Origin: Luidia sarsii
Lineage: Eukaryota > Echinodermata > Asteroidea > Paxillosida > Luidiidae
Assembly (NCBI GenBank): GCA_949987565.1
Contig: OX465121.1
Coordinates: forward strand, 3,303,117 to 3,367,116
Length of the DNA: 64,000 nt
Direction of reading: 5' to 3'
Positions 3,591 through 58,300 of this stretch are shown piece after piece. The first letter of the stretch is position 1, and each line of letters starts with the position of its first letter. Below the pieces are notes generated by a model. It had not been told where the DNA came from. It saw nothing but the letters and a program-made list of their open reading frames with translations, and did not search any database. Both the position numbers and the translations under genes were made by a program.

Positions 3591-4599
3591 GACAAGGACA
3601 AAACTGATACATGTACACGAAGGAAGGGGGAAGAGTGAATAGGACTCAGATGAGAAACAAAGGACAAAGAGTAAAGCTGGTGGGGTGAAATCAATGGGAA
3701 GGGCAAGGAGTAGGGTACCGGTAGGGATATAGTGAGAAGAGGGTGAAAGATCAAAGAGAGAAGTGTGCAGGAGTGAACACAAAAGAAGGATTATCAGAAA
3801 GTTGCATGGTGTTAGTCGCTCATTACCCTCCTGGATGTTGAGACCATGTGATTGAATAGTCCGAAGATGCTTCATCCACATTTTCTCACGGCTAAGACGG
3901 ACAACATTACTACGGTGACCAAGGGATTATATGCCCAGTAAACTCATATCTGATATCGAATGATCAGGGAGATTGAAGTGATACCCAACAGGGGTGTCCA
4001 TTTTACCGGTTTTGATTGTAGACTTATCGCCATAGATACGTTTTTTTAGGGTGTTTTTGGTCTCGCCAACATACTGAACATTAAAAACTCTACAAGAGAT
4101 GAAGTATAATTATGGCGTTTGAGGTATAGTGCACGGGACAAAGCCATAGGTCGTGTGGGTAGTTCCAGAAGAATGTCCATTGAAAGAGTCTATTTCCTTG
4201 ACATCTGTCTTGCAAACAATGCATTTCGAGGTACACTTAAATGTACCAAGTTTAGTGGGAGGTGAAGTGTCCAAAGGGGGAACCTCTGCTCGGACAATTA
4301 AGTCACGCAGGTTATGGGGGCGCCTGGAAGCCAAAACAGGCGAATTTGGAATGGCATCAGCCAGACGATCTGAAGTGTGAAGAATGTGGTGGTTTTCCTT
4401 GGTTATCTTCCTGAGAGGAGGAAGAGAAGGGTGGTAGGAAGTAACTAAGGGAACCTTGGACTTGTCCTTGGGACCTGGTGGCTTTTGTTTTAATGCCGAA
4501 CTTCTGGGAATGGAATAGACTTCAGCAATGGAGTCTTTCACTTGGTGAGAACTATAGCCTCTAGCAACCAGCAAGTTACTGGCTAATACACGTGTATGG

Positions 4600-4625
4600 C
4601 GGCGAAAGTCAGACGGCGAAAGTCA
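4600..4625. repeat. 12-bp direct repeat at RT deletion junction
   Basis: CGGCGAAAGTCA occurs at 4600-4611 and again at 4614-4625. This is exactly where the Penelope reverse transcriptase jumps from motif B to the thumb, losing the catalytic motif C. It looks like the scar of a deletion or replication slip. Confidence 0.6.
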
Positions 4626-5566
4626 TGGAGCCTAACTGAGCATGTGTTCCTCAAGGTCACCCATGAAGAGGCAAGCAAAGGAAGGAGCCATGCGCGTGCC
4701 TATGGCAGTGCCATGCACTTGAAGATAGTGCTTGCCAAGAAAGGAGAAATTTTTCTGGGCCAGCACTAGCTTCATGAGGGTGGTTATGTCAGAGATGGAT
4801 CGATGGAGAAGACTGATTTTCCTTTGGCCAGGGCTGAGGAGCTGGCTTGAATGCCTTCTTCCTGGGGGATGTTAGTGTATAGAGAGGAAACGTCAATGGT
4901 ATACCAATTATAGCAGTGGTCGGAATTTGATCCTTGACACTTTCCAACTTTCGCACAAAAGTCGGGAGTGTCATAGACGTATGAGGGGATTTGGGGAACC
5001 AAGGGTTTGAGAAAAGAGTAAATGAAAAGGCATATGTGTTCCGTAGGTGAACCATTGCCAGAGATGATGGGTCTGCCTTGGTTGTTGGTCTTGTGAATTT
5101 TCGGGAGAAGGTAGAATCTGGCAGTTCTACAATTGATCGGTAATAGAAATCTGTGAGGTTTTTTTTACTCAATTGATCACGTGATCGCATGTCGTCCAAA
5201 ACTTCCTGGATTTGCTCTGAAAATTTGCCAGTGGGGTTAGAGTCCAGACATTAATTTTATAGTGCTGGGGATTGTTAAGTTGGCGATTAGCTTCATCAAT
5301 ATATTTTTGGCGATCCATGCATGATTACTACGGCTGACCCTTTATCTGCTGGCTTGATAATGATGTCACCGCGAGAACGTGTTGAGAGCAAGACGTTCTT
5401 CCCTATAGGGGGGGGGCTTACGGGTAAGATGAGAGGAGTTGGAAACTTGAGAACTGACTGCTTGCACATACGTTTCAAGGGCTGGAACATGGTTCTTGGG
5501 GGGGGGGACCCAGGTGCTTTTTACTCGGAAAGGTTCTTCTTTACGGGAGCCAGAATCGAAGAAGAA

Positions 5567-5573
5567 CTCAGTC
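5567..5573. repeat. Target-site duplication, left (CTCAGTC)
   Basis: CTCAGTC here is repeated at 11138-11144, immediately outside the other end of the foldback element. The flanking Penelope sequence continues across the two sites. Because the ends are partly redundant, the duplication could be scored as 7 to 9 bp. Confidence 0.8.
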
Positions 5574-5609
5574 AGTAGTATGTTGTGACCGATGTGCACC
5601 CCTTTTGGT

Positions 5610-5765
5610 GGTGCAAAAATGTGCAGGTGGTGCAGGTGGTGCAGGTGGTGCAGGTGGTGCGGGTGGTGCGGGTGATGCGGGTGGTGCGGATGTGCGGGTG
5701 GTGCGGTTGGTGCGGGTGGTGCGGATGTGCGGGTGGTGATGTACGTGGTGCGGTAATGGTGGACG
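5610..5765. repeat. GGTGGTGCAG-type minisatellite, left arm
   Basis: Tandem 9-10-bp units (GTGCAGGTG, GTGCGGGTG and variants). Mirrored at 10946-11101. The same sequence class builds the much longer array at 43859-45330. Confidence 0.9.
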
Positions 5766-5874
5766 CATAGGCCTACGGCTATTTTGTATTGCATTGTTGC
5801 CTTTTTAAAATTATTATTATTATTAATTTTTTTTAATTTTATTTTTTAATTTTTTTTTCCCCCAGCGTTTTCTA

Positions 5875-5905
5875 ACAAACAAACAAACAAACAAACAAAC
5901 AAACC
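5875..5905. repeat. (AAAC)n microsatellite, left arm
   Basis: About eight AAAC units between an AT-rich tract and the TCGAAACGGG region. Mirrored as (GTTT)n at 10806-10836. Confidence 0.85.
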
Positions 5906-6479
5906 ACACCCAAACAGACAAAGGAACAAAAAAGTCAAACAACAGCTACGAATTGCGACAAGGGAGTTGGGTTAAATAACGGTCGAAACGGGTGCCTAAA
6001 ACCAACCGGAACTCACCAGAACATTCCTTATGTGGTCAACGGGCGATATACGGTTTGAATGATTTTATTGAACTCTTTCATACTTCACAAATCTTTACAA
6101 ATCAAGGTAGGTGGTTGTTCTGCCGTCATAAGCCACTTTCTTTCTTTCTTTTTGGATATAAGTATGAAAATGCAGTTTTCAACATTACGTTACATACGTT
6201 TGTATGGTTCAGTTTAACTAATAAACAAACAAAAAAGCTACCAGTGGCAGTATCTATCTAATGGTAGTCGTTATCAAATGTACATTTAAATTAGACTACT
6301 AAGTAAAAAACAAAAACAAAACAACAAATCAATGTGTATTGATACTAACTTGATGACAAAGCAAAAAGTGAAGCCGGTGCAGTTGTGTTCAGTCCGAAGA
6401 TGGAACGCGTAATGATCGTCTGCGAGGGTGACAGGGCACGTTGAATCGGTGCTAGGTGAGTTGTTACTACAAGTCCGAG

Positions 6480-6735
6480 TCAAGGGGACATTAGTCTCGA
6501 TCGAACAAAACAAAGAGGGGTTAATCAGGGACCTGCGCGTCTCTATTGGAAAGAACGATGAGGGGGTAATGAGCGACCTGCACGTCTCTATCGAACCAAA
6601 CAAAGAGGGGGATAATCAGGGACCTACACGCCTCTATTGGACAGAACGACGAGGGGTAATGCGCGGCCCGCAAATCTCTCTCGGGCAGGACAAAGAGGGA
6701 TCTGTGAGTGTCTATCGGACAGAACAAAGAGGGAA
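6480..6735. repeat. Degenerate 60-bp tandem repeats, left arm
   Basis: Four diverged units with recurring words GACCTGC, CGTCTCTAT and AACAAAGAGGG. Mirrored at 9976-10231. Both strands stay open by chance, giving short frames of similar composition, but none looks like a gene. Confidence 0.7.
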
Positions 6736-6939
6736 TCTAGAAGGCTGAATGTTATTGATGTCGGTTCAATGCCGGCCACGAACAGTGTCGGTAATTCTAA
6801 TGAAGGTATATTGTCCGATTGACGTATTTGAGCGCGGTCGTGGAAGTCTTCAAGAGACTTGACTGCTTGCAGTCGGCAACGTACTCATCGTCATCTGTGC
6901 ATCCATCTAAAAACATCAAACAGGAATCGGGACCTGCTC

Positions 6940-7137
6940 ATTGTACTCATCCACCTGCTCATGTTGCTCATCGACCTGCTCATTGTACTGGTCCACCTGC
7001 TCATTTTGCTCATTCACTTGCTCATTTTGCTCATTCACGTACTCATTTTGCTCATTTCCTGCTCATTTCCTGCTCATTTTGCTCATCTTGCTCATTTCCT
7101 GCTCATTTTGCTCATCGACCTGCTCATTTTGCTCTCA
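6940..7137. repeat. TGCTCAT minisatellite, left arm
   Basis: Irregular tandem array built on TGCTCAT with ACC, TTG and TTCC linkers, lying just 3' of the zinc-finger gene. Mirrored at 9574-9771. Confidence 0.85.
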
Positions 7138-7170
7138 TAAAGAAATAGGATTCTCTAATCCTTACCATCT

Positions 7171-7944
7171 CTAACTTTTTCTTCCGCTTTCATCATGTTG
7201 GAACAAGCCGAGAAATTCGGCATGGTGTTTAACCATTACCCTGTCCAGGGCCTTGTCAACTTCCATGCCTTTATCTAGTTTTTCTTTGAGATCTGCGAGA
7301 ATAACTTGGTGGGTTTCATTTTCTTCAAGATGCAAGTAACTTGACAGGAAATCCTTGTAGTTGTCAAAGAAGATTCTCTTGACTGCCCAGCAGGTTTTCC
7401 TATTGGCTTTGTCTTCGGCTTCATCTTCGTCCATACCATTGTCGATGTACTTCTCGTGTTTCTCATTCCACATATCTTTGGTTGCCTCTTTGGCCTCTTT
7501 CAACCAGTCTTGGTAAGCGATATTATCTTCCAATTCAGAGCTGGACCCATCTTCTTCCGACAAGTCATCGTCAGTTTCTTCCTCTGATTCGTCATCACTC
7601 TCCTCCAAATCGTCACCATCATCCTTAGATTCAGTCCCGTCACCATCAATTGTAGATTCAGTTCCGCTGCTGTCTGTTTCTGAATCCTGACATCTACGCC
7701 TTTTAAATCCCGGTTCATAATCTTCTACGTTAGAATTGGCTGATCGAAATGTTCTTATGTTACGATCATCGTCAATGTCGTCCATTTTCGATTCACCCGC
7801 AACGTGTGCATTTTCTTCATGTCTTCGAAGGTTATATCGCCGACTATAGCTTTTGCTGCAGCGATGACAAGCATAGCGTTTTAGCCCAGAAAAAGTATTC
7901 ATGATGTTTACTCGTGGAGTGTCGATCTCCAAATGGGAAGACAT
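7171..7944 (-). CDS. Acidic C2H2 zinc-finger protein, left-arm copy
   Basis: A 257-residue protein if started at the ATG at 7942-7944, identical in sequence to the right-arm copy. Residues about 20-46 hold one classical C2H2 finger: CHRC, then 12 residues, then H-X4-H. A short basic stretch with KRRR follows, then a long Asp/Glu/Ser-rich acidic region (about residues 95-145). The C-terminal third is Lys/Glu-rich and probably helical, with W, GMDEDEAED and a conserved-looking HHAEFLGLF end. I do not recognise a transposase fold or catalytic triad. The open frame continues upstream of this ATG through the minisatellite to 8289, giving a low-complexity Ser/His/Cys/Phe leader that I consider artefactual. 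A DNA-binding role in or for the element is inference. Confidence 0.7.
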   Translation of the reverse strand: MSSHLEIDTPRVNIMNTFSGLKRYACHRCSKSYSRRYNLRRHEENAHVAGESKMDDIDDDRNIRTFRSANSNVEDYEPGFKRRRCQDSETDSSGTESTIDGDGTESKDDGDDLEESDDESEEETDDDLSEEDGSSSELEDNIAYQDWLKEAKEATKDMWNEKHEKYIDNGMDEDEAEDKANRKTCWAVKRIFFDNYKDFLSSYLHLEENETHQVILADLKEKLDKGMEVDKALDRVMVKHHAEFLGLFQHDESGRKS

Positions 7945-7994
7945 GTTTAAAATTGGGCAATATATAAATGTCCTGTTTTCTGTCCTCATTCGGG

Positions 7995-8312
7995 TGAAAT
8001 GAGCAGAAATGAGCAGAAATGAGCAGAAATGAGCAGAAATGAGCAGAAATGAGCAGAAATGAGCAGAAATGAGCAGAAATGAGCACAGACATGAGTAGAA
8101 ATGAGCAGAAATGAGCAGAAATGAGCACAGACATGAGTAGAAATGAGCAGACATGAGTAGAAATGAGCAGACATGAGCAGAAATGAGCAGACATGAGTAA
8201 AAATGAGCAAAAAATGAGCAAACATGAGCAGACATGAGCACAGACATGAGCAGACATGAGCAGACATGAGCAGACATGAGCACAGACATGAGTAGACATG
8301 AGTAGAAATGAG
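7995..8312. repeat. GAGCAGAAAT minisatellite, left arm (inner)
   Basis: Ten-bp units GAGCAGAAAT and GAGCAGACAT with 12-bp variants containing GAGCACAGACAT. It is the complement of the array at 8399-8716. The array lies between the gene and the centre of symmetry, so any promoter for the gene must be inside or next to it. Confidence 0.9.
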
Positions 8313-8339
8313 CAAAATGGGGGAATGCTCCGGGGAAAA

Positions 8340-8371
8340 CCCATAAAATAATGGGGAGCGAGAATTTCTCT
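8340..8371. other. Central spacer of the foldback
   Basis: About 32 bp between the arms, flanked by GGGGAAAA and TTTTCCCC. It contains the small palindrome GAGAATTTCTC. It is too short for a gene and serves as the loop of the hairpin. Confidence 0.8.
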
Positions 8372-8398
8372 TTTCCCCGGGCATTCCCCCATTTTACT

Positions 8399-8716
8399 GA
8401 TTTCTACTCATGTCTACTCATGTCTGTGCTCATGTCTGCTCATGTCTGTGCTCATGTCTGCTCATGTCTGTGCTCATGTCTGCTCATGTTTGCTCATTTT
8501 TTGCTCATTTTTACTCATGTCTGCTCATTTCTGCTCATGTCTGCTCATTTCTACTCATGTCTGCTCATTTCTACTCATGTCTGTGCTCATTTCTGCTCAT
8601 TTCTGCTCATTTCTACTCATGTCTGTGCTCATTTCTGCTCATTTCTGCTCATTTCTGCTCATTTCTGCTCATTTCTGCTCATTTCTGCTCATTTCTGCTC
8701 ATTTCTGCTCATTTCA
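8399..8716. repeat. ATTTCTGCTC minisatellite, right arm (inner)
   Basis: Mirror of 7995-8312. One unit reads TGTCTGTGCTCA here where the left arm has TGTCTGCTCA. This 2-bp difference changes the upstream open frame but not the gene. Confidence 0.9.
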
Positions 8717-8742
8717 CCCGAATGAGGACAGAAAACAGGACA

Positions 8743-8750
8743 TTTATATA
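8743..8750 (+). promoter_or_regulatory. TATA-like box upstream of the zinc-finger gene
   Basis: TTTATATA lies 17-24 bp upstream of the ATG at 8767 and is mirrored in the left arm at 7961-7968. The spacing to the start codon is short, so it may be coincidental. Confidence 0.25.
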
Positions 8751-8766
8751 TTGCCCAATTTTAAAC

Positions 8767-9540
8767 ATGTCTTCCCATTTGGAGATCGACACTCCACGAG
8801 TAAACATCATGAATACTTTTTCTGGGCTAAAACGCTATGCTTGTCATCGCTGCAGCAAAAGCTATAGTCGGCGATATAACCTTCGAAGACATGAAGAAAA
8901 TGCACACGTTGCGGGTGAATCGAAAATGGACGACATTGACGATGATCGTAACATAAGAACATTTCGATCAGCCAATTCTAACGTAGAAGATTATGAACCG
9001 GGATTTAAAAGGCGTAGATGTCAGGATTCAGAAACAGACAGCAGCGGAACTGAATCTACAATTGATGGTGACGGGACTGAATCTAAGGATGATGGTGACG
9101 ATTTGGAGGAGAGTGATGACGAATCAGAGGAAGAAACTGACGATGACTTGTCGGAAGAAGATGGGTCCAGCTCTGAATTGGAAGATAATATCGCTTACCA
9201 AGACTGGTTGAAAGAGGCCAAAGAGGCAACCAAAGATATGTGGAATGAGAAACACGAGAAGTACATCGACAATGGTATGGACGAAGATGAAGCCGAAGAC
9301 AAAGCCAATAGGAAAACCTGCTGGGCAGTCAAGAGAATCTTCTTTGACAACTACAAGGATTTCCTGTCAAGTTACTTGCATCTTGAAGAAAATGAAACCC
9401 ACCAAGTTATTCTCGCAGATCTCAAAGAAAAACTAGATAAAGGCATGGAAGTTGACAAGGCCCTGGACAGGGTAATGGTTAAACACCATGCCGAATTTCT
9501 CGGCTTGTTCCAACATGATGAAAGCGGAAGAAAAAGTTAG
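8767..9540 (+). CDS. Acidic C2H2 zinc-finger protein, right-arm copy
   Basis: Identical in protein sequence to the left-arm gene and transcribed away from the centre, so the two copies are divergent. It starts MSSHLEIDTP and ends in GRKS before TAG. One C2H2 finger (YACHRC to HEENAH) is followed by an acidic, Ser-rich middle and a charged helical C-terminus. The complete identity between copies implies either recent birth of the inverted repeat or gene conversion between arms. It is uninterrupted, unlike the surrounding Penelope and gypsy pseudogenes. Function unknown. I suspect an element-encoded DNA-binding protein, not a host gene. Confidence 0.7.
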   Translation: MSSHLEIDTPRVNIMNTFSGLKRYACHRCSKSYSRRYNLRRHEENAHVAGESKMDDIDDDRNIRTFRSANSNVEDYEPGFKRRRCQDSETDSSGTESTIDGDGTESKDDGDDLEESDDESEEETDDDLSEEDGSSSELEDNIAYQDWLKEAKEATKDMWNEKHEKYIDNGMDEDEAEDKANRKTCWAVKRIFFDNYKDFLSSYLHLEENETHQVILADLKEKLDKGMEVDKALDRVMVKHHAEFLGLFQHDESGRKS

Positions 9541-9573
9541 AGATGGTAAGGATTAGAGAATCCTATTTCTTTA

Positions 9574-9771
9574 TGAGAGCAAAATGAGCAGGTCGATGAG
9601 CAAAATGAGCAGGAAATGAGCAAGATGAGCAAAATGAGCAGGAAATGAGCAGGAAATGAGCAAAATGAGTACGTGAATGAGCAAAATGAGCAAGTGAATG
9701 AGCAAAATGAGCAGGTGGACCAGTACAATGAGCAGGTCGATGAGCAACATGAGCAGGTGGATGAGTACAAT
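9574..9771. repeat. ATGAGCA minisatellite, right arm
   Basis: Mirror of 6940-7137, immediately 3' of the zinc-finger gene. Confidence 0.85.
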
Positions 9772-9975
9772 GAGCAGGTCCCGATTCCTGTTTGATGTTT
9801 TTAGATGGATGCACAGATGACGATGAGTACGTTGCCGACTGCAAGCAGTCAAGTCTCTTGAAGACTTCCACGACCGCGCTCAAATACGTCAATCGGACAA
9901 TATACCTTCATTAGAATTACCGACACTGTTCGTGGCCGGCATTGAACCGACATCAATAACATTCAGCCTTCTAGA

Positions 9976-10231
9976 TTCCCTCTTTGTTCTGTCCGATAGA
10001 CACTCACAGATCCCTCTTTGTCCTGCCCGAGAGAGATTTGCGGGCCGCGCATTACCCCTCGTCGTTCTGTCCAATAGAGGCGTGTAGGTCCCTGATTATC
10101 CCCCTCTTTGTTTGGTTCGATAGAGACGTGCAGGTCGCTCATTACCCCCTCATCGTTCTTTCCAATAGAGACGCGCAGGTCCCTGATTAACCCCTCTTTG
10201 TTTTGTTCGATCGAGACTAATGTCCCCTTGA
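9976..10231. repeat. Degenerate 60-bp tandem repeats, right arm
   Basis: Mirror of 6480-6735. Confidence 0.7.
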
Positions 10232-10805
10232 CTCGGACTTGTAGTAACAACTCACCTAGCACCGATTCAACGTGCCCTGTCACCCTCGCAGACGATCATT
10301 ACGCGTTCCATCTTCGGACTGAACACAACTGCACCGGCTTCACTTTTTGCTTTGTCATCAAGTTAGTATCAATACACATTGATTTGTTGTTTTGTTTTTG
10401 TTTTTTACTTAGTAGTCTAATTTAAATGTACATTTGATAACGACTACCATTAGATAGATACTGCCACTGGTAGCTTTTTTGTTTGTTTATTAGTTAAACT
10501 GAACCATACAAACGTATGTAACGTAATGTTGAAAACTGCATTTTCATACTTATATCCAAAAAGAAAGAAAGAAAGTGGCTTATGACGGCAGAACAACCAC
10601 CTACCTTGATTTGTAAAGATTTGTGAAGTATGAAAGAGTTCAATAAAATCATTCAAACCGTATATCGCCCGTTGACCACATAAGGAATGTTCTGGTGAGT
10701 TCCGGTTGGTTTTAGGCACCCGTTTCGACCGTTATTTAACCCAACTCCCTTGTCGCAATTCGTAGCTGTTGTTTGACTTTTTTGTTCCTTTGTCTGTTTG
10801 GGTGT

Positions 10806-10836
10806 GGTTTGTTTGTTTGTTTGTTTGTTTGTTTGT
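10806..10836. repeat. (GTTT)n microsatellite, right arm
   Basis: Mirror of the (AAAC)n tract at 5875-5905. Confidence 0.85.
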
Positions 10837-10945
10837 TAGAAAACGCTGGGGGAAAAAAAAATTAAAAAATAAAATTAAAAAAAATTAATAATAATAATAA
10901 TTTTAAAAAGGCAACAATGCAATACAAAATAGCCGTAGGCCTATG

Positions 10946-11101
10946 CGTCCACCATTACCGCACCACGTACATCACCACCCGCACATCCGCACCACCCGCA
11001 CCAACCGCACCACCCGCACATCCGCACCACCCGCATCACCCGCACCACCCGCACCACCTGCACCACCTGCACCACCTGCACCACCTGCACATTTTTGCAC
11101 C
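10946..11101. repeat. CACCTGCACC-type minisatellite, right arm
   Basis: Mirror of 5610-5765. Confidence 0.9.
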
Positions 11102-11137
11102 ACCAAAAGGGGTGCACATCGGTCACAACATACTACT

Positions 11138-11144
11138 CTCAGTC
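11138..11144. repeat. Target-site duplication, right (CTCAGTC)
   Basis: Matches 5567-5573. Penelope sequence resumes directly after it on the minus strand. Confidence 0.8.
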
Positions 11145-11640
11145 AGACGAAGTCTGCAGTAATACTCGGTGAGATCTTGACTGAGCATGACTTGGTCAAC
11201 TTGGGGGGGGGGGCGGGGTTGGACAAAAGTTCAAACCCTTGGAAAGTAAGTATGCTCTGCGTCAGTTAGAGAAGAAGAGGAAAGGTTGACAACAGTGTCA
11301 GTTGGTGGTAAAGGTGTAGACTGGGGACTGCGTCTGAAGCGGTTGTGTCTGCGTTGTTTGGCAACAAGGCCACCAATCGTCTTGTTTCTCCTGTCGGTGA
11401 GAACAGAATTGAGGTTAGAGAGACCTTTCTCAATCTCATCACTGAGATCCCTGTACTGGTTTTCAGAACAGCTGGAGCGGAATTTTGGAGTCCAGATTTA
11501 ATAGCAATGTCCTGGTGGACAGCCTGAAGAGGTATTTTCACATTGCTCAGAGAGGACCTTAATGAGCTGAATGGAAGCACTATATAGAATTTGGTTCCAT
11601 TTTTTCTGTAGGTTGGGGGAGAGTTTGATAGCTACTTACA
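11145..11640 (-). pseudogene. Penelope-like element, N-terminal part (5' portion)
   Basis: On the minus strand two frames together show Penelope N-terminal features: a Lys/Arg-rich stretch (KQRRHNRFRR), then VVNLSSSSLTD, which is the usual lead-in to the reverse transcriptase. A frameshift separates this frame from the overlapping one at 11266-11580. This part was continuous with 3540-5566 before the foldback element inserted. The outer boundary near 11640 is approximate. Confidence 0.75.
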
Positions 11641-27740: not shown

Positions 27741-29011
27741 ATGACCAGAACCTGGAATTCAGCCAAGCCTGATCAGATAGCGACGTACGTGATCATCCCC
27801 AGCCAGCTGACGGTTCCCGTGAGAATGGTCTCCCTTGACGACCTCCACTGCGAGCTTCATGCCTTGCTACAGTCAGCTACCCGCGAGGCACTGCTGAAGG
27901 TGTGCACTGAGGTCGGCATCGAAGGCCACCCGAGCTCTTCTCCGACAGATACGGAGATACCTCGGAAGCGACGAATTAGAAGGACGGGAGGATGAGGGTT
28001 TTTCAGTTGTTGAGAAACTGCTGAATATTCTCAAGACTCCTCCTTCCCCTGAGCCGCCAGGAACCATCAGCCCGGCACATACAGCAGCCCACATGCACTG
28101 CCCCCCCACATGATCTGCCGACTGGGACCATGTTCCGTCGGGAGTTCCGCGTCTTCGGACAGATTGGTGATGCGACTCAGAAGGACAGGATCTCTTTCCT
28201 CTCCCTGATGCACCAGATTGAAACCGGGCTAGCGAAGGGATATGGAGAGAGGGATGTGGTCGATGAGGCCATCGTCAGGGTCATCAACCCCGCCTCGCGT
28301 CTCCGCAGCTACCTGGAAGGGAAGTCTGCCCTCACCCTTGCAGACCTCCGACGGGTCTTGCGGTCGCACTACAAGGAGAGCGGTGCGACTGACCTGTACT
28401 ACCAGTTGTCGAGGGCCCGGCAGGAGGCAAAGGAGAGTCCACAGGAATTCCTCGTCCGGGCTATGGATCTTCAGCAGAAGGTCCTCTTCATCTCCAAAGA
28501 GGCGACGACCGGCCCGAGGTATGAGACTGAGCAGGTGCGAGCCATGTTTCTCCACACACTGCAGACAGGCTTCTGCAGCGAGGGAGTGCGGACGGAGATG
28601 CGGCCCTACCTGCAGAACCCCGAGGTCAGTGATGAGGAGCTCCTGGAAAGGCTTAACACAGCTACAAGCCAGGAGGAGGAGCGACAACAGAAGATGGGCA
28701 CACTCAAGCCCACTGCTATCAGCACCATCACTCAGCAGGCCACGGACGCAGAGTCGACCAAGGTCCCGAAGTCCAACCCCTTAATGGAGGATCTGAAGGA
28801 CTTGAAGCTACAAGTTGCTGCCATAGCTCAAGCCCTGCAGTCAAGTAGCCATGGGTCTGATCAGCAGGATTCAAGAATGACCCGCTCCTGTGGCCCACCC
28901 AGAAAGTGGGGCTGCCATCGTTGCCAGTCGCAGGGTGTTGGCGACCAGTGCCGACACTGCTTCAAGTGTGGAGCATCTGACCACTATACATGCGATACTG
29001 CAGTCGTCTAG
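27741..29011 (+). pseudogene. gag: Ty3/gypsy gag (frameshifted)
   Basis: Two frames, 27741-27995 and 28130-29011, carry a gag-like protein. The larger has a helical capsid-like region (LADLRRVLRSHY, ESPQEFLVRAMDLQQ) as in Ty3/gypsy capsids, then a Cys/His-rich end, CHRCQSQGVGDQCRHCFKCG, for nucleic-acid binding. A frameshift between the two frames and another inside the zinc knuckle, just after the SDH residues, break the reading frame. The pol region follows downstream. Confidence 0.8.
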
Positions 29012-29115
29012 CGGGAAACGGCCAAGGGTTGCCGCCAAGGGGCGAGCAGTAACCCCCACGACACAGAGTCCCAGCAGCAGAACGACACCCCAACGAGAGA
29101 GCGGACAGGAGCAAC

Positions 29116-29710
29116 ATGACCTGTGCAAGTCTGTGCTCATCTCACACCCAGACAGCATCAGCGAGTGAGCCGACTCATCGGCAACAGGTGTATGGTGCAT
29201 TGCTCCATAGATGGGCAGAAGACGAGGGCCCTTTGGGATACAAAGTCCCAGATATCTCTTCTCCCTCGCTGGTGGTTTCAACGACATCTCCCCCACGTTC
29301 TTATGCGGCCCCTCGATTAGCTTCTGAGTGACACACCATTAGATGGCAGGGCAGCAAACTCATCCGCCATCCCATTCGATGGCTGGATCGAGGCGAGATT
29401 CTCTGTGCCCGGAGATGATGCTAGTACCCATGTTGATCTCGTCAGATGTAGACGAACCCATCATTGGCTACAACGTCATTGAAAAACTGACCAGGGACTG
29501 CGAAGGCGATACCCGAAGCATTCTGCATGCAGGGTTTCCCAAGCTGAAATCTTCATCCATCAACGCATTGGTTAATCTCCTTCAAGACGTGAGTCCGGAT
29601 AACCTTTGCATGATGCGAGTAGAGAAAAAGGGCGTGCACATCCCTAAGGGTACCAGCCGAGCAGTGACCTGTAAAATTAGATTGGGACCCATGAGAGTCG
29701 ACACCCCTGT
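29116..29710 (+). pseudogene. pol: Ty3/gypsy protease domain (DTK at the active site)
   Basis: RALWDTKSQISLLP near 29225-29268 is the retroelement aspartic protease active-site region, but the canonical DTG is DTK here. The second half continues in the frame 29343-29726 with DEPIIGYNVIEKL, the flap-to-C-terminal pattern of gypsy proteases. A frame change separates the halves. The segment stops where a small element inserted at 29711. Dead copy. Confidence 0.75.
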
Positions 29711-30166
29711 CACTATGAACATCTAAACCGTGAAAATATGGTGAAAATGCCATTTAGCCGTGAAAAGAAAATTCACCGTGTTTTCACCCCTATTTCATTG
29801 CACACAGTTTTTTCACGGTGTTTTCACCAATGGTCTCCAAGGCCACATTCCTGGTGGTAAATGGCTAGAGGCACTTTACAAGTATCTGGGAGTGACAGTT
29901 ACAAGGACACCATACAGCACCTCTATGGGGGCTGGTGGATCCTACTGGGATTTAGCCATCCCTCAAGGCTGCAGCTTGCCACCCTAGATATTCAAGGTTT
30001 TTTTCACGGTCTTTTTAGTGACCTAAAGTTGTCTTTATCAGGTCAGAGAGGCAATTATTTTCACGGTGAATTCCCTGTAAAATGCACTGTGAAATTACAG
30101 TGACTTTTTAGTTTCATGGCAAAATGACATTTTCACCCCTCTTTCACGGCTTAGATGTTCATAGTG
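29711..30166. mobile_element. CACTATGAAC-ended element inserted in gypsy pol
   Basis: 456 bp. Ends CACTATGAACATCTAA and GTTCATAGTG match as inverted repeats of roughly 38 bp. TGT flanks both sides (29708-29710 and 30167-30169), and the pol frame resumes directly after the second TGT. Internal words such as TTTTCACGGTG and GGTGAAAAT recur in both orientations. CACTR ends, a 3-bp duplication and subterminal repeated motifs are the marks of the CACTA (EnSpm) superfamily. Confidence 0.85.
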
Positions 30167-31703
30167 TGTACTGTTTGAGCCGAGTGTCCGTTCACGCTTA
30201 CCAGAAGGTGCAGAGGTGAGTGAATGCTTGCTCACAGTCAAGGCAAACTCCACCCACATTAATTTGCAAGTCACCAACCACTCTGAGAGGGATGTCTTCA
30301 TCAGAGGCGGTACTGTTCTTGGAGAGCTGCTGCAGGTCAGGTCGGTCCTACCCTAGCTGTGCCGAGGACCCCGGCCAAGCAGATGGAGCCCGACCACAAT
30401 GGCCGACCAGAGTGAACACCATTTCCTCTCAGCCCCCATCACGACCCACAGAGTGGACGCCACCCGTGGACTTGAGTCAACTGACAAGAGAGCAACGGGG
30501 TGCTGCTGAGAAGATGCTCAAAGAGGAGGCAGGAGCATTTTCAAGAGATGACAACGACATGGGATGCATTCGAGATTTGCAGATGATCATCCAGCTCAAG
30601 GATGACAAGCCGGTCCAGAAGACCTACATCTCAGTGCCACGCCCCCTCTACAAGGAGGTCAGAGAGTATCTCCACGACCTGATACAGCGAGGATGGGTAG
30701 CCAAGTCGGAGTCATCCTATTCCTCCCCAATAGTCTGTGTCAGGAAGAAGGATGACAGTTTACGGCTCTGCATAGACTATAGGGAGTTGAATAGCAAAAC
30801 GATACCCGACCGGCAACCCATTCCCCGCATCCAGGATGTTCTTGATGGCCTAGGTAGACACTCTTGGTTCTCAACTCTGGACCAGGGCAAAGCCTACCAT
30901 CAAAGATTCATGTCTGAGGAAAGCACACCCCTCACAGCATTTGTGACCCCCTGGGACTATATGAGTGGCTCCGGATCCCCTTCGGCCTCACTAATGCCCC
31001 AGCAGTGTTTCAACGTTGTATGGAGACATGCCTGGAGGAGACATGACTGACGGGTGACATTGCCACCATCTATCTTGACGACATCCTGGTCTATGGCACA
31101 ACATTCGAGAGCCATCTGGAGAATGTCCGAACTGTGCTCCATCGACTACAGCAGCATGGTGTCAAACTCAAGCCGAGTAAGTGCCACCTTTTTCAGAAGG
31201 AGGTCCGTTACCTTGGCCGAGTTGTCTCTGCAGAGGGACATAAGATTGATCCAGCTGATACCAGTGCGGTTCAAGTGCTAAAGGAGAAGACTCCGAAGAC
31301 AGTCGGTGAAGTGAGGAAACTCCTGGGGTTCCTGGGTTACTACAGGCGGTATATCCAAGATTTTTCCAGAGTAGCGAAACCCCTGTATGACCTCCTCACA
31401 ATCAGGCCAGCCCCAGAGCATCAACCGAGTCCCAACCAACACTTCAAGCCTAAGACAAAGCCCAACCGATCAGGAGCAGGACAACCCCCTTCGAAACAAC
31501 CAATAACATGGACTAGTCAACACCAACACATCCTGGAGTTCATCTTGGATTGCCTGACCAATCCTCCTGTGATGGTATTTCCCGACTTCTCGCTTCCCTT
31601 CATCCTCCACACCGATGCATCCAGTGAAGGCCTTGGAGCAATACTGTACCAGCGTCAACAAGGGAAGCTGAGACTCATCAGTTATGGCTCGCGGACTCTC
31701 TGA
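30167..31703 (+). pseudogene. pol: Ty3/gypsy reverse transcriptase and RNase H start
   Basis: The first frame (to 31050) includes VREYLHDLIQRGWVAKSES, SPIVCVRKKDDSLRLCIDYR and STLDQGKAYHQ (RT motif A region). A frameshift near 30955 displaces the FGLTNAP-type motif B region, and a TGA lies just before the YLDDILVY catalytic motif near 31070-31093. The second frame (31134-31703) carries KCHLFQKEVRYLGRVVSAEG, LLGFLGYYRRYI and the RNase H start FILHTDASSEGLGAILYQ. Order and motifs are those of Ty3/gypsy. Multiple breaks show it is inactive. Confidence 0.9.
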
Positions 31704-31727
31704 CCCTCAGAGAAAATTACAATTTGC

Positions 31728-31968
31728 ATGTCTTCATCCGAGGCGGCACTGTTCTTGGAGAGCTGCTGAAGGTCAGGTCGGTCCTACCCTAGCTGTGCCG
31801 AGGACCCCTGCCAAGCAGATGGAGCCCGACCACAATGGCCGACCAGAGTGAACACCATTTCCTCTCAGCCCCCATCACGACCCACAGAGTGGACGCCACC
31901 CGTGGACTTGAGTCAACTGACAAGAGAGCAACGGGGTGCTGCTGAGAAGATGCTCAAAGAGGAGGCAG
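31728..31968 (+). repeat. 241-bp copy of 30292-30532 inside RNase H
   Basis: The segment starting ATGTCTTCATC and ending GGAGGCAG repeats the pre-RT region at 30292-30532 at equal length with a few substitutions. It is followed by a second copy (31966-32016) of the 51 bp at 31679-31729. The junctions show 2-3-bp microhomology (AT and CAG). Confidence 0.95.
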
Positions 31969-33075
31969 TTATGGCTCGCGGACTCTCTGACCCTCAGAGA
32001 AAATTACAATTTGCATTCAGGCAAATTAGAGTTTCTAGCCATGAAGTGGGCGATCTGCGAAAAATTCCGCGATTACCTCTACTACGCGAAGTCTTTCACA
32101 GTCTACACGGACAATAATCCCCTTACGTACGTGCTCACCTCAGCAAGATTAAATGCAACAGGTTACCGGTGGGTGGCAGAGTTGGCCGACTTCAACTTCG
32201 ACATAAAGTACAAGCCCGGCAAAGCCAACGCTGATGCAGACACTCTGTCACGGCTGCCTCTCGATTTCGAGAAGTACATTGCTGAGTGCACCCTGGGGAC
32301 AACACTAGCAGCCATTGATGCCACCGTCAAGGCCATCAAGGCCCAGCAGGCAGGTCTTGCCTGGGTATCAGCCATTACATCACCGCTTCCTCAGAACAGC
32401 CCCGAGACAGACCCAGATGTGACCCAGCTGGAGATGGCAAACGCCCAACGTGATGACCCAAGCGTGGGACCTGTCCTGCGGTACGTGATACAGAAGCGAC
32501 GCCCCCGCAAGCAGGACAGAGCGGGAGAGCACCGGGATGTGACTGCCCTGCTTCATGAATTGGCGAAGCTAACTTTGAGGGATGGAGTCCTCTATCGGAA
32601 GCGGGGATCCCACTACCAGCTGATTCTCCCTCAAAGATACCGTCGCCGCATCTATACGGAGCTTCATAACAACATGGGACACATGGGTGCAGATCGGGTG
32701 GTCAGCCTTGCCCGTGATCGGTTCTATTGGCCACACATGCAGCGAGACATTGAACATTATGTTACTCAGGAGTGTTCATGCCTCAAGCAGAGACGTCCAA
32801 ACCAACCCACTGGTGCCCCCATGCAGACCATTACCACTACAAGGCCATTTCAACTGGTGTCCATCGATTTCCTGCATCTGGAGCACAGCAAAGGTGGCTA
32901 CGAGTACATCTTGGTCGTCATGGACCATTTTACTCGCTTCGCACGAGCTTATGCCACCACAAACAAGGCAGGGAAAACAGCCGCAGACAAAATATTTAAT
33001 GATTTTGTTCTGAAGTTCGGATTCCCTCGACGACTTCACCACGACCAGGGTCGGGAGTTTGAAAATCACCAAAGT
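31966..33075 (+). pseudogene. pol: Ty3/gypsy RNase H end and integrase (truncated)
   Basis: The frame 31936-33150 holds the RNase H C-terminal part ([47 protein letters not shown]), then an integrase HHCC zinc-binding region ([18 protein letters not shown]). The catalytic core follows with its first two aspartates (SIDFL and HDQGREFEN). It breaks off before the third catalytic residue, at the junction with a MITE end at 33075. No 3' LTR follows. Confidence 0.9.
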
Positions 33076-33110
33076 GTGTTGGTGGGATATTCCTCATGTC
33101 GCTGTGCCGG
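33075..33110. mobile_element. MITE end fragment truncating the gypsy element
   Basis: AGTGTGTTGGTGGGATATTC and then CTCATGTCGCTGTGCCGG is the terminal part of the TGTGACCCGGCAC family (compare 34231-34290 inverted). Only about 36 bp remain. It joins gypsy integrase directly to the next repeat. Confidence 0.8.
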
Positions 33111-33450
33111 TGTGGCGGACTTAGATGTCCGCCGGACTCAGATGTACTAGTCACGGTATATTTAGTCCGGCGGGCCAAAGTGTCCGGCTGACGAATGTGT
33201 TTTTATGACCAATTGAGGGCGCTATATGAAGAATATTCCTTTGCGCCGTGGTTTTAATGGTACACATGTATCAACATAATAATATTACGTACATGCTTCT
33301 TGCGTGGAGAACACAATGACGCAAGCATATTTTTGAAAAATATATCAACCAAAACAAGTCTTAGATTTTTTTTAAATTAGACCCTTTATAGTAGAGTACG
33401 GTTATCCAGAGCTGATATTAAATTAGATACTGGGACTGAGTGGCGGATGG
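33109..33450. repeat. GTGGCGGACT repeat, copy 1
   Basis: Starts GGTGTGGCGGACTTAGATGT and matches 33718-34060 in the same orientation, with shared landmarks TAGTCACGGTAT, GAATGTGTTTTTA and GAGGGCGCTATA near the start and GAGCTGATATTAAATTAGA at the end. Confidence 0.75.
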
Positions 33451-43700: not shown

Positions 43701-43858
43701 ATTTTTGTATATCACTCTAATTAATTAATTAGTTTAATAATGATTGGGTAGACTATAATTATGGACAATTTGGGAGGTTAATTGACTTTTCATGTCTAAG
43801 GAGTGGAGGCGACCGGAGGATATTAAGTAGTATAAGAGGAGCTGGATTTACCCCGATT

Positions 43859-45330
43859 GGTGGTGCAAATGAGGTGGTGCAGAGGTGGTGCTGAGGGTGG
43901 TGCAGAGGGTGGTGCTGAGGGTGGAGGGTGGTGCAGAGGGGGTGCTGAGGGTGGTGCAGAGGTGGTGCTGAGGGTGGAGGGTGGTGCTGAGGGTGGTGCA
44001 GAGGGTGGTGCAGAGGGTGGTGCTGAGGGTGGTGCAGAGGTGGTGCTGAGGGTGGTGCAGAGGGTGGAGGGTGGTGCAGAGGGGGTGCTGAGGGTGGTGC
44101 AGAGGATGGAGGGTGGTGCAGAGGGGGTGCTGAGGGTGGTGCAGAGGGGGTGCTGAGGGTGGTGCAGAGGGGGTGCTGAGGGTGGTGCAGAGGGTGGTGC
44201 AGAGGGTGGTGCAGAGGGTGGAGGGTGGTGCAGAGGTGGTGCTGAGGGTGGTGCAGAGGGTGGAGGGTGGTGCAGAGGGGGTGCTGAGGGTGGTGCAGAG
44301 GGGGTGCTGAGGGTGGTGCAGAGGTGGTGCTGAGGGTGGTGCAGAGGGTGGAGGGTGGTGCAGAGGGGGTGCTGAGGGTGGTGCAGAGGGTGGAGGGTGG
44401 TGCAGAGGGGGTGCTGAGGGTGGTGCAAAGGGGGTGCTGAGGGTGGTGCAGAGGTGGTGCTGAGGGTGGTGCAGAGGTGGTGCTGAGGGTGGTGCAGAGG
44501 TGGTGCTGAGGGTGGTGCAGAGGGTGGAGGGTGGTGCAGAGGGGGTGCTGAGGGTGGTGCAGAGGTGGTGCTGAGGGTGGTGCAGAGGGTGGAGGGTGGT
44601 GCAGAGGGTGGAGGGTGGTGCAGAGGGGGTGCTGAGGGTGGTGCAGAGGGGGTGCTGAGGGTGGTGCAGAGGGGGTGCTGAGGGTGGTGCAGAGGGTGGA
44701 GGGTGGTGCAGAGGGGGTGCTGAGGGTGGTGCAGAGGTGGTGCTGAGGGTGGTGCAGAGGGTGGTGCTGAGGGTGGTGCAGAGGGTGGAGGGTGGTGCAG
44801 AGGGTGGTGCAGAGGGTGGTGCTGAGGGTGGTGCAGAGGGTGGAGGGTGGTGCAGAGGTGGTGCTGCACTGTAAAAACGAACTGCACCTCATGCACTTCT
44901 GCAATGGCACATATTTGTCCCAGAATCATGAACTCTTGAAGCACCTACTGTACTTCATGCACATGGAATACTGTAGCTCAAGCACATGTGGCATTGCAGT
45001 CACTTGAGTAAAAGTCGGATGAGGTGCATGAAGTGCTTCATGTACAAGAACATCTCCCTATTTATTGTACCTCAACCACATGGAGTGAAAGTGAGCATCA
45101 CCTAGTACTCATGTGTCGTGCACCATGTGCCTCAACATACTTCATCCATGTGCATGATGTGGGCACCGTTTTTACAGTGTGAGGGTGGTGCTGAGGGTGG
45201 TGCAGAGGGTGGAGGGTGGTGCAGAGGGGGTGCTGAGGGTGGTGCAGAGGGGGTGCTGAGGGTGGTGCAGAGGGGGTGCTGAGGGTGGTGCAGAGGGGGT
45301 GCTGAGGGTGGTGCAGAGGTGGTGTTACCT
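43859..45330. repeat. GTGGTGCAGAGG minisatellite, interrupted
   Basis: Over 1 kb of 12-bp units GTGGTGCAGAGG and GTGGTGCTGAGG with GTGGAGG variants, split by a small insertion at 44867-45179. Minus-strand open frames of 383 and 373 codons run through it as low-complexity His/Pro/Thr repeats and are not genes. Confidence 0.97.
44867..45179. mobile_element. CACTGTAAAAACG-ended element nested in the minisatellite
   Basis: 313 bp with ends CACTGTAAAAACG and CGTTTTTACAGTG, flanked by TG on both sides; removal restores the 12-bp repeat. Internal words such as TTCATGCAC and GTGCATGAAG recur in both orientations. Probably a CACTA-type non-autonomous element. Confidence 0.9.
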
Positions 45331-55284: not shown

Positions 55285-55361
55285 GTAAACAAAACAAAAT
55301 ACCGTTGGAGTAATTTTTTGTGCTAAAGCTCAGAGGTCTTAGTCTTTGCCTTGGTCATTGA

Positions 55362-58300
55362 CATCTCGGTCTCTGTGTTGGGTATTGTGATCTCGGTCTA
55401 GGTGTTGTGCATTGAGATCTCGGTCTAGGTGTTGTGCATTGTGATCTCGGTCTAGGTGTTGTACATTGAGATCTCGGTCTAGGTGTTGTGCATTGAGATC
55501 TCGGTCTAGGTGTTGTGCATTGAGATCTCGGTCTAGGTGTTGTGCATTGTGATCTCGGTCTAGGTGTTGTGCATTGAGATCCCGGTCTAGGTGTTGTGCA
55601 TTGTGATCTCGGTCTAGGTGTTGTGCATGGTGATCTCGGTCTAGGTGTTGTGCATTGTGATCTCGGTCTAGGTGTTGTGCATGGTGATCTCGGTCTAGGT
55701 GTTGTGCATTGAGATCTCGGTCTAGGTGTTGTGCATTGAGATCTCGGTCTAGGTGTTGTGCATTGAGATCTCGGTCTAGGTGTTGTGCATTGAGATCTCG
55801 GTCTAGGTGTTGTGCATTGAGATCTCGGTCTAGGTGTTGTGCATTGTGATCTCGGTCTAGGTGTTGTACATTGAGATCTCGGTCTAGGTGTTGTGCATTG
55901 AGATCTCGGTCTAGGTGTTGTGCATTGAGATCTCGGTCTAGGTGTTGTGCATTGTGATCTCGGTCTAGGTGTTGTGCATTGAGATCCCGGTCTAGGTGTT
56001 GTGCATTGTGATCTCGGTCTAGGTGTTGTGCATGGTGATCTCGGTCTAGGTGTTGTGCATTGTGATCTCGGTCTAGGTGTTGTGCATTGTGATCTCGGTC
56101 TAGGTGTTGTGCATGGTGATCTCGGTCTAGGTGTTGTGCATTGAGATCTCGGTCTAGGTGTTGTGCATTGAGATATCGGTCTAGGTGTTGTGCATTGTGA
56201 TCTCGGTCTAGGTGTTGTGCATTGTGATCTCGGTCTAGGTGTTGTGCATTGTGATCTCGGTCTAGGTGTTGTGCATTGTGATCTCGGTCTAGGTGTTGTG
56301 CATTGTGATCTCGGTCTAGGTGTTGTGCATGGTGATCTCGGTCTTGGTGTTGTACATTGAGATCTCGGTCTAGGTGTTGTGCATTGTGATCTCGGTCTAG
56401 GTGTTGTGCATTGTGATCTCGGTCTAGGTGTTGTGCATTGAGATCTCGGTCTAGGTATTGTGCATTGAGATCTTGGTCTAGGTGTTGTGCATTGAGATCT
56501 CGGTCTAGGTGTTGTGCATTGTGATCTCGGTCTAGGTGTTGTGCATTGAGATCTCGGTCTAGGTGTTGTGCATTGAGATCTCGGTCTAGGTATTGTGCAT
56601 TGTGATCTCGGTCTAGGTGTTGTGCATTGTGATCTCGGTCTAGGTGTTGTGCATTGAGATATCGGTCTAGGTGTTGTACATTGAGATCTCGGTCTAGGTG
56701 TTGTGCATTGAGATCTCGGTCTAGGTGTTGTGCATTGAGATATCGGTCTAGGTGTTGTGCATTGTGATATCGGTCTAGGTGTTGAGCATTGTGATCTCGG
56801 TCTAGGTGTTGTGCATTGAGATCTCGGTCTAGGTGTTGTGCATTGAGATCTTGGTCTAGGTGTTGTGCATTGAGATCTCGGTCTAGGTGTTGTGCATGGT
56901 GATCTCGGTCTAGGTGTTGTGCATTGTGATCTCAGTCTATAGGTGTTGTGCATTGAGATCTCGGTCTAGGTGTTGTGCATGGTGATCTCGGTCTAGGTGT
57001 TGTACATTGAGATCTCGGTCTATGTGTTGTGCATTGAGATCTCGGTCTAGGTGTTGTGCATTGTGATCTCGGTCTAGGTATTGTGCATTGAGATCTCGGT
57101 CTAGGTGTTGTGCATTGAGATCTCGGTCTAGGTGTTGTGCATTGAGATCTCGGTCTAGGTGTTGTGCATTGAGATATCGGTCTAGGTGTTGGGTATTGTG
57201 ATCTCGGTCTAGGTGTTGGGTATTGTGATCTCGGTCTAGGTGTTGTGCATTGAGATCTCGGTCTAGGTGTTGTGCATTGAGATCTCGGTCTAGGTGTTGT
57301 GCATTGTGATCTCGGTCTAGGTGTTGTGCATTGAGATCTAGGTCTAGGTGTTGTACATTGAGATCTTGGTCTAGGTGTTGTGCATTGAGATCTCGGTCTA
57401 GGTGTTGTGCATTGAGATCTCGGTCTAGGTGTTGTGCATTGAGATCTCGGTCTAGGTGTTGTGCATTGAGATCTCGGTCTAGGTGTTGTGCATTGAGATA
57501 TCGGTCTAGGTGTTGGGTATTGTGATCTCGGTCTAGGTGTTGGGTATTGTGATCTCGGTCTAGGTGTTGTGCATTGAGATCTCGGTCTAGGTGTTGTGCA
57601 TTGTGATCTCGGCCTAGGTGTTGTGCATTGAGATCTCGGTCTAGGTGTTGTGCATTGAGATCTCGGTCTAGGTGTTGTGCATTGAGATCTCGGTCTAGGT
57701 GTTGTGCATTGAGATCTCGGTCTAGGTGTTGTGCATTGAGATCTCGGTCTAGGTGTTGTGCATTGAGATCTCGGTCTAGGTGTTGTGCATTGTGATCTCG
57801 GTCTAGGTGTTGTGCATTGTGATCTCGGTCTAGGTGTTGTGCATTGAGATCTCGGTCTAGGTGTTGTACATTGAGATCTTGGTCTAGGTGTTGTACATTG
57901 AGATCTTGGTCTAGGTGTTGTGCATTGTGATCTCGGTCTAGGTGTTGTGCATTGTGATCTCGGTCTAGGTGTTTTGCATTGTGATCTCGGTCTAGGTGTT
58001 GTGCATTGAGATCTCGGTCTAGGTATTGTGCATTGAGATCTCGGTCTAGGTGTTGTGCATTGTGATCTTGGTCTAGGTGTTGTGCATTGAGATCCCGGTC
58101 TAGGTGTTGTGCATTGAGATCTCGGTCTAGGTGTTGTACATTGAGATCTCGGTCTAGGTGTTGTGCATTGAGATCTCGGTCTAGGTGTTGTGCATTGAGA
58201 TCTCGGTCTAGGTGTTGTGCATTGAGATCTCGGTCTAGGTGTTGTGCATTGAGATCTCGGTCTAGGTGTTGTACATTGAGATCTTGGTCTAGGTGTTGTG

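Follow-up and report, generated by a model that had tools for sequence, protein, structure and literature searches.

A palindromic foldback element with a zinc-finger gene in each arm, probably of Polinton/Maverick descent, in the genome of Luidia sarsii

How does a mobile element come to consist of one palindrome with the same intact gene in both arms, and what moves it? The question is raised by a locus of the sea star Luidia sarsii: in a stretch of 64,000 nt (contig OX465121.1, positions 3,303,117 to 3,367,116; called the window here, with positions counted from its first letter), positions 5574-11137 form a palindrome of 5,564 bp with one zinc-finger gene per arm. The answer developed below is that this is likely a non-autonomous palindromic foldback element of Polinton/Maverick descent, probably mobilised in trans. 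What is new is a Polinton-derived foldback with a duplicated, conserved gene.

The preliminary description of this DNA, made from the letters of the window, had claimed a 5.56-kb inverted repeat that is symmetric to the base over its gene-bearing arms, and this is borne out: the arms (5574-8262 and 8449-11137) are 2,689 nt each and 100% complementary, their inner parts (8261-8338 and 8371-8448, 78 bp) are 94% complementary, and 32 nt lie between these. The palindrome starts AGTAGT and finishes ACTACT, and its 18-bp terminus has two matches in the window at ≤3 mismatches, both of them the element ends, with a chance mean of 0.04. From the outside inwards each arm holds the terminus, a minisatellite of unit GTGCGGGTG, 45-bp and 21-bp minisatellites, the gene, and a 10-bp minisatellite near the centre. 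The two different minisatellites said to flank the gene, and the further repeats, were likewise recovered as tandem repeats on both sides, and the intact and identical C2H2/acidic gene claimed for each arm is the same 257-codon frame in both. The features are as follows.

5574-5591, + strand: left terminus AGTAGTATGTTGTGACCG, with the (AGT)2 Maverick-type end motif (motif as given in PMC8097293)
5621-5738, + strand: 9-bp minisatellite in the terminal repeat (mirror 10973-11090)
6494-6699, + strand: 45-bp minisatellite of the left arm (mirror about 10028-10217)
6932-7134, + strand: 21-bp minisatellite that lies downstream of the left gene and contains the TGCTCAT motif (mirror 9577-9779)
7171-7944, - strand: zinc-finger/acidic gene, left copy, 257 amino acids, reading away from the centre
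7996-8319, + strand: central 10-bp minisatellite, unit GAAATGAGCA, upstream of the left gene
8339-8370, no strand: asymmetric 32-nt centre, near-identical in the other full copies where the motif was found
8400-8715, - strand: mirror of the central minisatellite, upstream of the right gene
8767-9540, + strand: zinc-finger/acidic gene, right copy, identical to the left
11120-11137, - strand: right terminus, exact inverse of the left terminus

That the palindrome was inserted as a whole unit, splitting a Penelope-like retroelement and leaving a 7-bp duplication, had also been claimed, and the flanks agree. CTCAGTC stands on both sides of the element, and when the element and one CTCAGTC are removed an open frame runs across the join. 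A paralogous stretch at C3:8944031-8944506 can be aligned to the joined flanks and is ungapped where they meet (identity at 444 of 489 positions, with 66 bp aligned left of the junction and the remainder right of it); it represents the empty site, as seen in a paralogous copy and not in an allele.

4110-5573, - strand: left-hand part of the split Penelope-like retroelement (approximate extent; identified by eye in translated frames)
5567-5573, no strand: target site duplication CTCAGTC, left copy (the paralogous empty site has one CTCAGTC)
11138-11144, no strand: target site duplication CTCAGTC, right copy
11145-11564, - strand: right-hand part of the split Penelope-like retroelement, as aligned with the uninterrupted paralogue

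A search of the animal's own genome (471 Mb) with the 18-bp terminus at ≤2 mismatches gave 81 matches, of which 53 are exact, compared with 21 for the reversed pattern, and 34 loci around these matches were examined. They include, with the window copy, 21 foldback copies that run from end to end, 20 of them exact at both termini and one (L033) with a single changed base; eleven are 5.5-5.7 kb long, within a range of 1.2 to 6.2 kb. Five copies (L018, L022, L023, L025, and L039) have internal deletions and served solely for the study of duplications, terminal repeats, and gene state. A search for further copies with the same termini had been suggested as a check, and its outcome is that of a mobile, multicopy, and recent unit; the duplications of 7-9 bp expected with it are not what the copies have, since 6 bp is usual (18 of 21) and the window copy has 7. 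The duplication of L030, which was inserted in a C-run, is ambiguous, with fits from 3 to 7 bp. Three copies (L033-L035, at C21:14.55-14.60 Mb) occupy one insertion site with identical flanks and duplication and are a segmental duplication carrying the foldback, so that 16 of 19 independent insertions have 6 bp. Two loci stand apart: L036 (C22:3599067-3604617) has both termini with unmatched flanks and is possibly a recombinant of two insertions, and L019/L020 (C5:10725623 and C5:10846810) seem to be one foldback copy split by gaps of 200 N per stretch, with its halves 121 kb apart, probably through a scaffolding error.

The ends of the element tie it to a known class of mobile DNA. According to PMC8097293, vertebrate Mavericks have 5'-(AGT)2//(ACT)2-3' as their commonest end motif, 6-bp duplications, a mean size of 16,862 bp, and a mean terminal inverted repeat (TIR) of 402 bp. 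The Polinton/Maverick end motif, (AGT)2//(ACT)2 or (AG)3//(CT)3, is present in the foldback element, and the genome holds a Polinton, at C2:5463781-5481281, which measures 17.5 kb between termini that are the same as those of the foldback and which has a CACACG duplication. This Polinton encodes a polymerase of 1,251 amino acids (DNA_pol_B_2, 3e-16), an integrase (rve, 5e-14, plus Chromo), an ATPase (Adeno_IVa2/Pox_A32, about 1e-5), and an adenovirus-type protease (Peptidase_C5, 4e-4, just below the cut-off); a second, decayed Polinton begins at another of the termini (L013/L045). When ends were compared with the minisatellite masked, the right TIR of the complete Polinton showed 1 difference in 328 sites from the foldback L029 and a median difference of 1.7% from the foldback ends, which differ from one another by a median of 2.5%.

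The match continues inwards at one end of the Polinton. Its two ends have about 490 bp in common, and the foldback arm matches the right end to arm position 505 only, whereas it matches the left, polymerase-side end to position 684 and again at 783-799, a block separated from the 3' end of the polymerase gene by about 150 bp.

5574-6078, + strand: outer arm (arm 1-505), 96% match to the right terminal repeat of the 17.5-kb Polinton
6071-6257, + strand: arm 498-684, 97.9% match over 187 bp to the polymerase-side end of the Polinton, not to its other end
6356-6372, + strand: exact block of 17 bp (arm 783-799), which is also present close to the polymerase gene in the Polinton and is the last Polinton trace before the cassette
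10454-10640, - strand: mirror of the polymerase-side block
10633-11137, - strand: mirror of the outer arm

Because the arms of the window copy are identical, both match the same Polinton end, as fits an inverted (snap-back) duplication; simple lengthening of the terminal repeats would not single out one end. The palindrome thus has the appearance of one Polinton end and a zinc-finger cassette that were duplicated in inverted orientation, an argument drawn from one complete Polinton. The decayed Polinton L013 also has an arm match on its polymerase side (arm 312-717, 76%), which was not counted because it overlaps the end of the polymerase match and the other end of L013 was not compared. Inward of arm position 800 the cassette has no match in the Polinton stretches examined, no Polinton protein was found by tblastn in the foldback loci L026, L028, L040, and L042, where the zinc-finger gene alone matches, and among the frames of at least 80 amino acids in the window element the zinc-finger gene is the sole one recognised, with no PolB or integrase seen. 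The foldback is therefore like a Polinton/Maverick in its (AGT)2//(ACT)2 ends, its 6-bp duplications, the minisatellite in its terminal repeat, and ends near-identical to those of a Polinton of the same genome, and unlike one in its length of 5.5 kb, in being wholly palindromic, in carrying the zinc-finger gene twice, and in that no gene for a polymerase, an integrase, an ATPase, or a protease was seen. Elsewhere in the window, positions 43826-44880 hold another (AGT)2-type end, in which AGTAGTATAAGAGGAGCTGG leads into a long GGTGGTGCAGAGG minisatellite and which resembles a Polinton terminal repeat of another family; its first 20 bases have no inverse partner within the window at ≤3 mismatches. 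Nested in the GGTGGTGCAGAGG minisatellite is, by eye, a short element (44869-45180) with inverted ends CACTGTAAAAACG...CGTTTTTACAGTG.

What keeps the arms alike was asked of 12 copies with symmetric arms; four others (L027, L033, L034, and L035, with raw between-arm counts of 81, 96, 96, and 95) were excluded because one arm is without the gene start and the arms are aligned out of register at that point. In nine of the 12 the arms agree throughout the inner unique 1,293 bp, and they differ there at one site in L029 and at three each in L024 and L030; the window copy and L021, each with 0/1,293, are also identical to each other. Arms resemble their own partner far more closely than arms paired at random, both in the inner region (0.0005 vs 0.0040) and in the terminal repeat (0.0051 vs 0.0137), with 0 of 20,000 pairings as close in either case. 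Non-majority variants stand on both arms rather than one in the inner region (35 vs 7), in the outer 500 bp (34 vs 21), and in between (8 vs 2), and those private to one element do so 12 vs 6 times in the inner and 13 vs 12 times in the outer region. L009 has an identical gene-breaking insertion of 1 bp in both arms, and L012 an identical insertion of 27 bp. Variants and insertions found on both arms mean that the sequence of one arm tends to replace that of the other.

This replacement could occur by hairpin copying at each transposition or by gene conversion between the arms after insertion, and the choice between these sources of arm identity is nearly even. Gene conversion, which keeps the arms of Y-chromosome palindromes identical, likewise predicts variants on both arms and stands as a serious candidate at somewhat under an even chance. 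It leaves the origin of the palindrome unexplained, and copies that look very young, such as those of the window and L021, already have perfect inner arms.

The product of the gene, 257 amino acids long, combines a single C2H2 finger with an acidic stretch and with a C-terminal region that is conserved and has no convincing family match. The preliminary description had asked whether it might be a transposase; profile and sequence searches (Pfam, PHROGs, PDB) gave the C2H2 finger, otherwise weak and scattered matches, and no transposase relationship. A profile search returned 58 relatives at E below 1e-20, the few names among them being 'hypothetical protein' and 'uncharacterized Zn-finger protein', and beside them one zinc-finger protein of a frog, with a match that covers 11% of the query; pattern matches in IMG/VR (12) and in prokaryote genome contigs (54) included none that was confirmed. 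Within the genome at least 152 gene matches were found (148 of 1,044 candidates scored). The 150 matches listed merge to at least 147 gene copies, which form at least 41 pairs closer than 4 kb and at least 65 singles, and all 41 of the pairs less than 4 kb apart among the matches listed are divergent. Of 37 full-length matches in the examined loci and the window, six are broken, namely both in L009 and one each in L023, L027, L031, and L042, and the other 31 are intact.

The possibility that the element moves itself, its zinc-finger protein being an unrecognised recombinase or replication protein, was weighed against these results. The 58 relatives, the largely intact copies, and the retention of the gene in two families (see below) favour it; the outcome of the profile searches, the ends in common with an element that encodes a polymerase and an integrase of its own, and L009, which has a normal 6-bp duplication with both genes broken (a break that may be later than the insertion), make it quite unlikely. 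The product is more plausibly, we infer, a DNA-binding regulator, the target of which would perhaps be the flanking TGCTCAT arrays. The 7-mer TGCTCAT/ATGAGCA occurs 81 times in the window element, within the arrays on either side of the gene, and not at all in the gene or in the outer 505 bp; the rest of the window (58.4 kb) has it 2 times, and the Polinton stretches L043 and L044 have it nowhere.

A second palindromic family extends the picture. At least three gene pairs among the matches listed are about 60% identical to the window gene, and one of them sits in an element of 9,525 bp at C3:8944925-8954449, which was examined save for 849 bp of its right arm. This element has (AGT)2 ends, AGTAGTGTGTTGGG...CCCAACACACTACT, and a 6-bp duplication, AATGGA; its arms are 100% complementary over stretches of 1,898 and 1,417 nt and 99.1% over the 7.2 kb compared. 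Each arm carries a gene that is 57.5% identical to the window gene and open for 239 amino acids, as well as a second, broken gene copy. One TGA occurs in the second-family gene matches, and since the open frame begins after it, it lies upstream of the start. Between the genes of the two families the ratio of nonsynonymous to synonymous substitution rates (dN/dS) is 0.40 over 233 codons (Fisher p 4.7e-7), with 0.32 in the N-terminal and 0.52 in the C-terminal part; selection within the first family was considered and rejected, its changes being neutral-looking, as is expected of copies left after insertion. The second family has the same layout, which must therefore be older than the divergence to 57.5% protein identity; on these comparisons both the palindromic layout and the family of the gene are old, which is not visible from the window copy alone. 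A frame at 2920-3273 of L049 has a relative in the second-family outer arm (38.9% identity over 90 amino acids) and could be a common accessory gene, and a long frame at 6353-7933 of the same locus has, by eye, the look of what we take to be a piggyBac-type transposase.

Foldback elements of other descent offer a further explanation, namely a classical Mutator- or P-type foldback (FB, TU, Tetris, Galileo) that carries a gene and moves by a cut-and-paste transposase. Drosophila FB, Galileo, and Tetris and sea-urchin TU resemble the element in long inverted arms with internal tandem repeats and a short centre, and differ from it in usual duplication length, in helper lineage, and in the conserved intact gene that the arms hold here. 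Elements of the FB, TU, and Galileo kind leave Mutator- or P-type duplications of 7-10 bp, a length found in the window copy and not in the family at large, and the 7 bp of the window copy taken alone would fit Galileo; a P/Galileo-type reading based on it was rejected, 18 of the 21 copies having 6 bp. In PMC4079207 foldbacks are described as mostly Mutator-related, with exceptions, and Tetris as an element whose long inverted arms contain internal repeats and enclose a short centre, with no conserved open reading frame and with duplications of 8-10 bp. Judged by its prevailing 6-bp duplications, its (AGT)2 ends, and an end sequence common to a Polinton, the element is very unlikely to be of this type. 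The preliminary description was accordingly right about a mobile foldback with a gene in both arms that was inserted whole and is multicopy and recent, while the kinship with FB and TU that it proposed is not supported, because ends, 6-bp duplications, and arm sequence tie the element to Polinton/Maverick. There is next to no chance, lastly, that the palindrome is a host segmental palindrome or an assembly error (a worry of that description), even with the segmental duplication L033-L035 and the seemingly gap-split L019/L020 copy on its side: target duplications at independent sites and the empty-site paralogue refute this for the window copy, and the 21 end-to-end copies, three of them at one site, answer the worry about the assembly.

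Several observations weigh against Polinton/Maverick descent with mobilisation in trans. The window copy's own duplication is 7 bp long, and L036 has none. The terminus does not always mark a foldback: the ends of L013, L017, L037, and L041, which have it, fail to align with the foldback terminal repeat (the nearest is 45-54% different), as do one or more foldback ends (maximum difference 53%). In the complete Polinton two capsid-sized frames have no Pfam match, and the left TIR holds a 1.5-kb insert (538-2046 of L043, starting CAGTGATGG), possibly what we take to be a hAT-type element. Searches of the Polinton stretches L043/L044, the partial L013/L045, and the partial L049/L010 did not turn up the zinc-finger gene. 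The first-family gene shows a neutral-looking pattern, in which 30 of 39 changes are nonsynonymous (one of these a stop) where a proportion of 0.775 is expected, and the dN/dS between families rests on one sequence pair. TGCTCAT occurs far less densely in the second family (18 times in 6.7 kb of L050), the arrays of which are still about 70-80% like those of the first, and the identity of the arms could be due to gene conversion after insertion.

Common ends, target duplications, the polymerase-side arm match, many recent copies, homogenisation, the coexisting Polinton, and the second family are seen directly, and the following course of events would account for them. A Polinton end (the terminal repeat and the sequence up to the polymerase gene) would have been joined to a zinc-finger cassette, and the two duplicated in inverted orientation to give a linear palindrome. 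Because the palindrome keeps Polinton termini, the polymerase and integrase of full Polintons in the same cell could copy and insert it, and the common ends suggest this use of helper proteins in trans; the foldback is probably moved by Polintons. The polymerase would use a protein primer to begin synthesis at the (AGT)2 end and would copy the linear palindrome, and the retrovirus-like integrase would insert it, usually with 6-bp duplications. During copying the single displaced strand may fold on itself, so that one arm templates the other, and the zinc-finger protein may act as a regulator on the TGCTCAT arrays; helper dependence, hairpin copying, and the role of the gene are the parts that we infer.

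Parallels exist among replicons with protein-primed ends. Protein-primed linear plasmids and viruses have foldback derivatives, for example the palindromes of a Kluyveromyces killer plasmid, which are, as the present element probably is, inverted duplications of one end of a protein-primed replicon and dependent on a helper polymerase; those arise as defective forms in culture, whereas the element described here is a chromosomal, integrating, long-lived family with a gene. Virophages and phage satellites, which use the machinery of a helper, also combine their own gene content with ends of helper type; the present element is a candidate satellite by its ends. That it is a long-lived satellite or hyperparasite of Polintons, with a duplicate conserved gene, self-folding copying, helper integration, and maybe packaging in helper capsids, is a tentative and rather doubtful extension. 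Non-autonomous, foldback, or palindromic Polintons were not found in the titles and abstract starts that searches of open-licence papers brought up, and exact phrases for them had no match in open-licence papers.

Two further features of the window lie outside the element: frames at 28130-33150 that resemble, by eye, a Gypsy-type retrotransposon (gag, reverse transcriptase, integrase), and, at 55355-63879, long tandem arrays that give open frames of the repeat QCTTPRPRS/NAQHLDRD.

The family described here indicates that foldback elements can arise from Polintons and not only from cut-and-paste transposons, and its palindrome may be a natural record of the snap-back products of protein-primed replication. 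It also brings forward a family of proteins in which none of the 58 relatives at E below 1e-20 bears an informative name. With its helper-type ends, its conserved gene, and its many recent copies, the element can be approached directly, through its polymorphism, its protein, and any extrachromosomal form, and it bears on the question of whether Polintons are active viruses with satellites.

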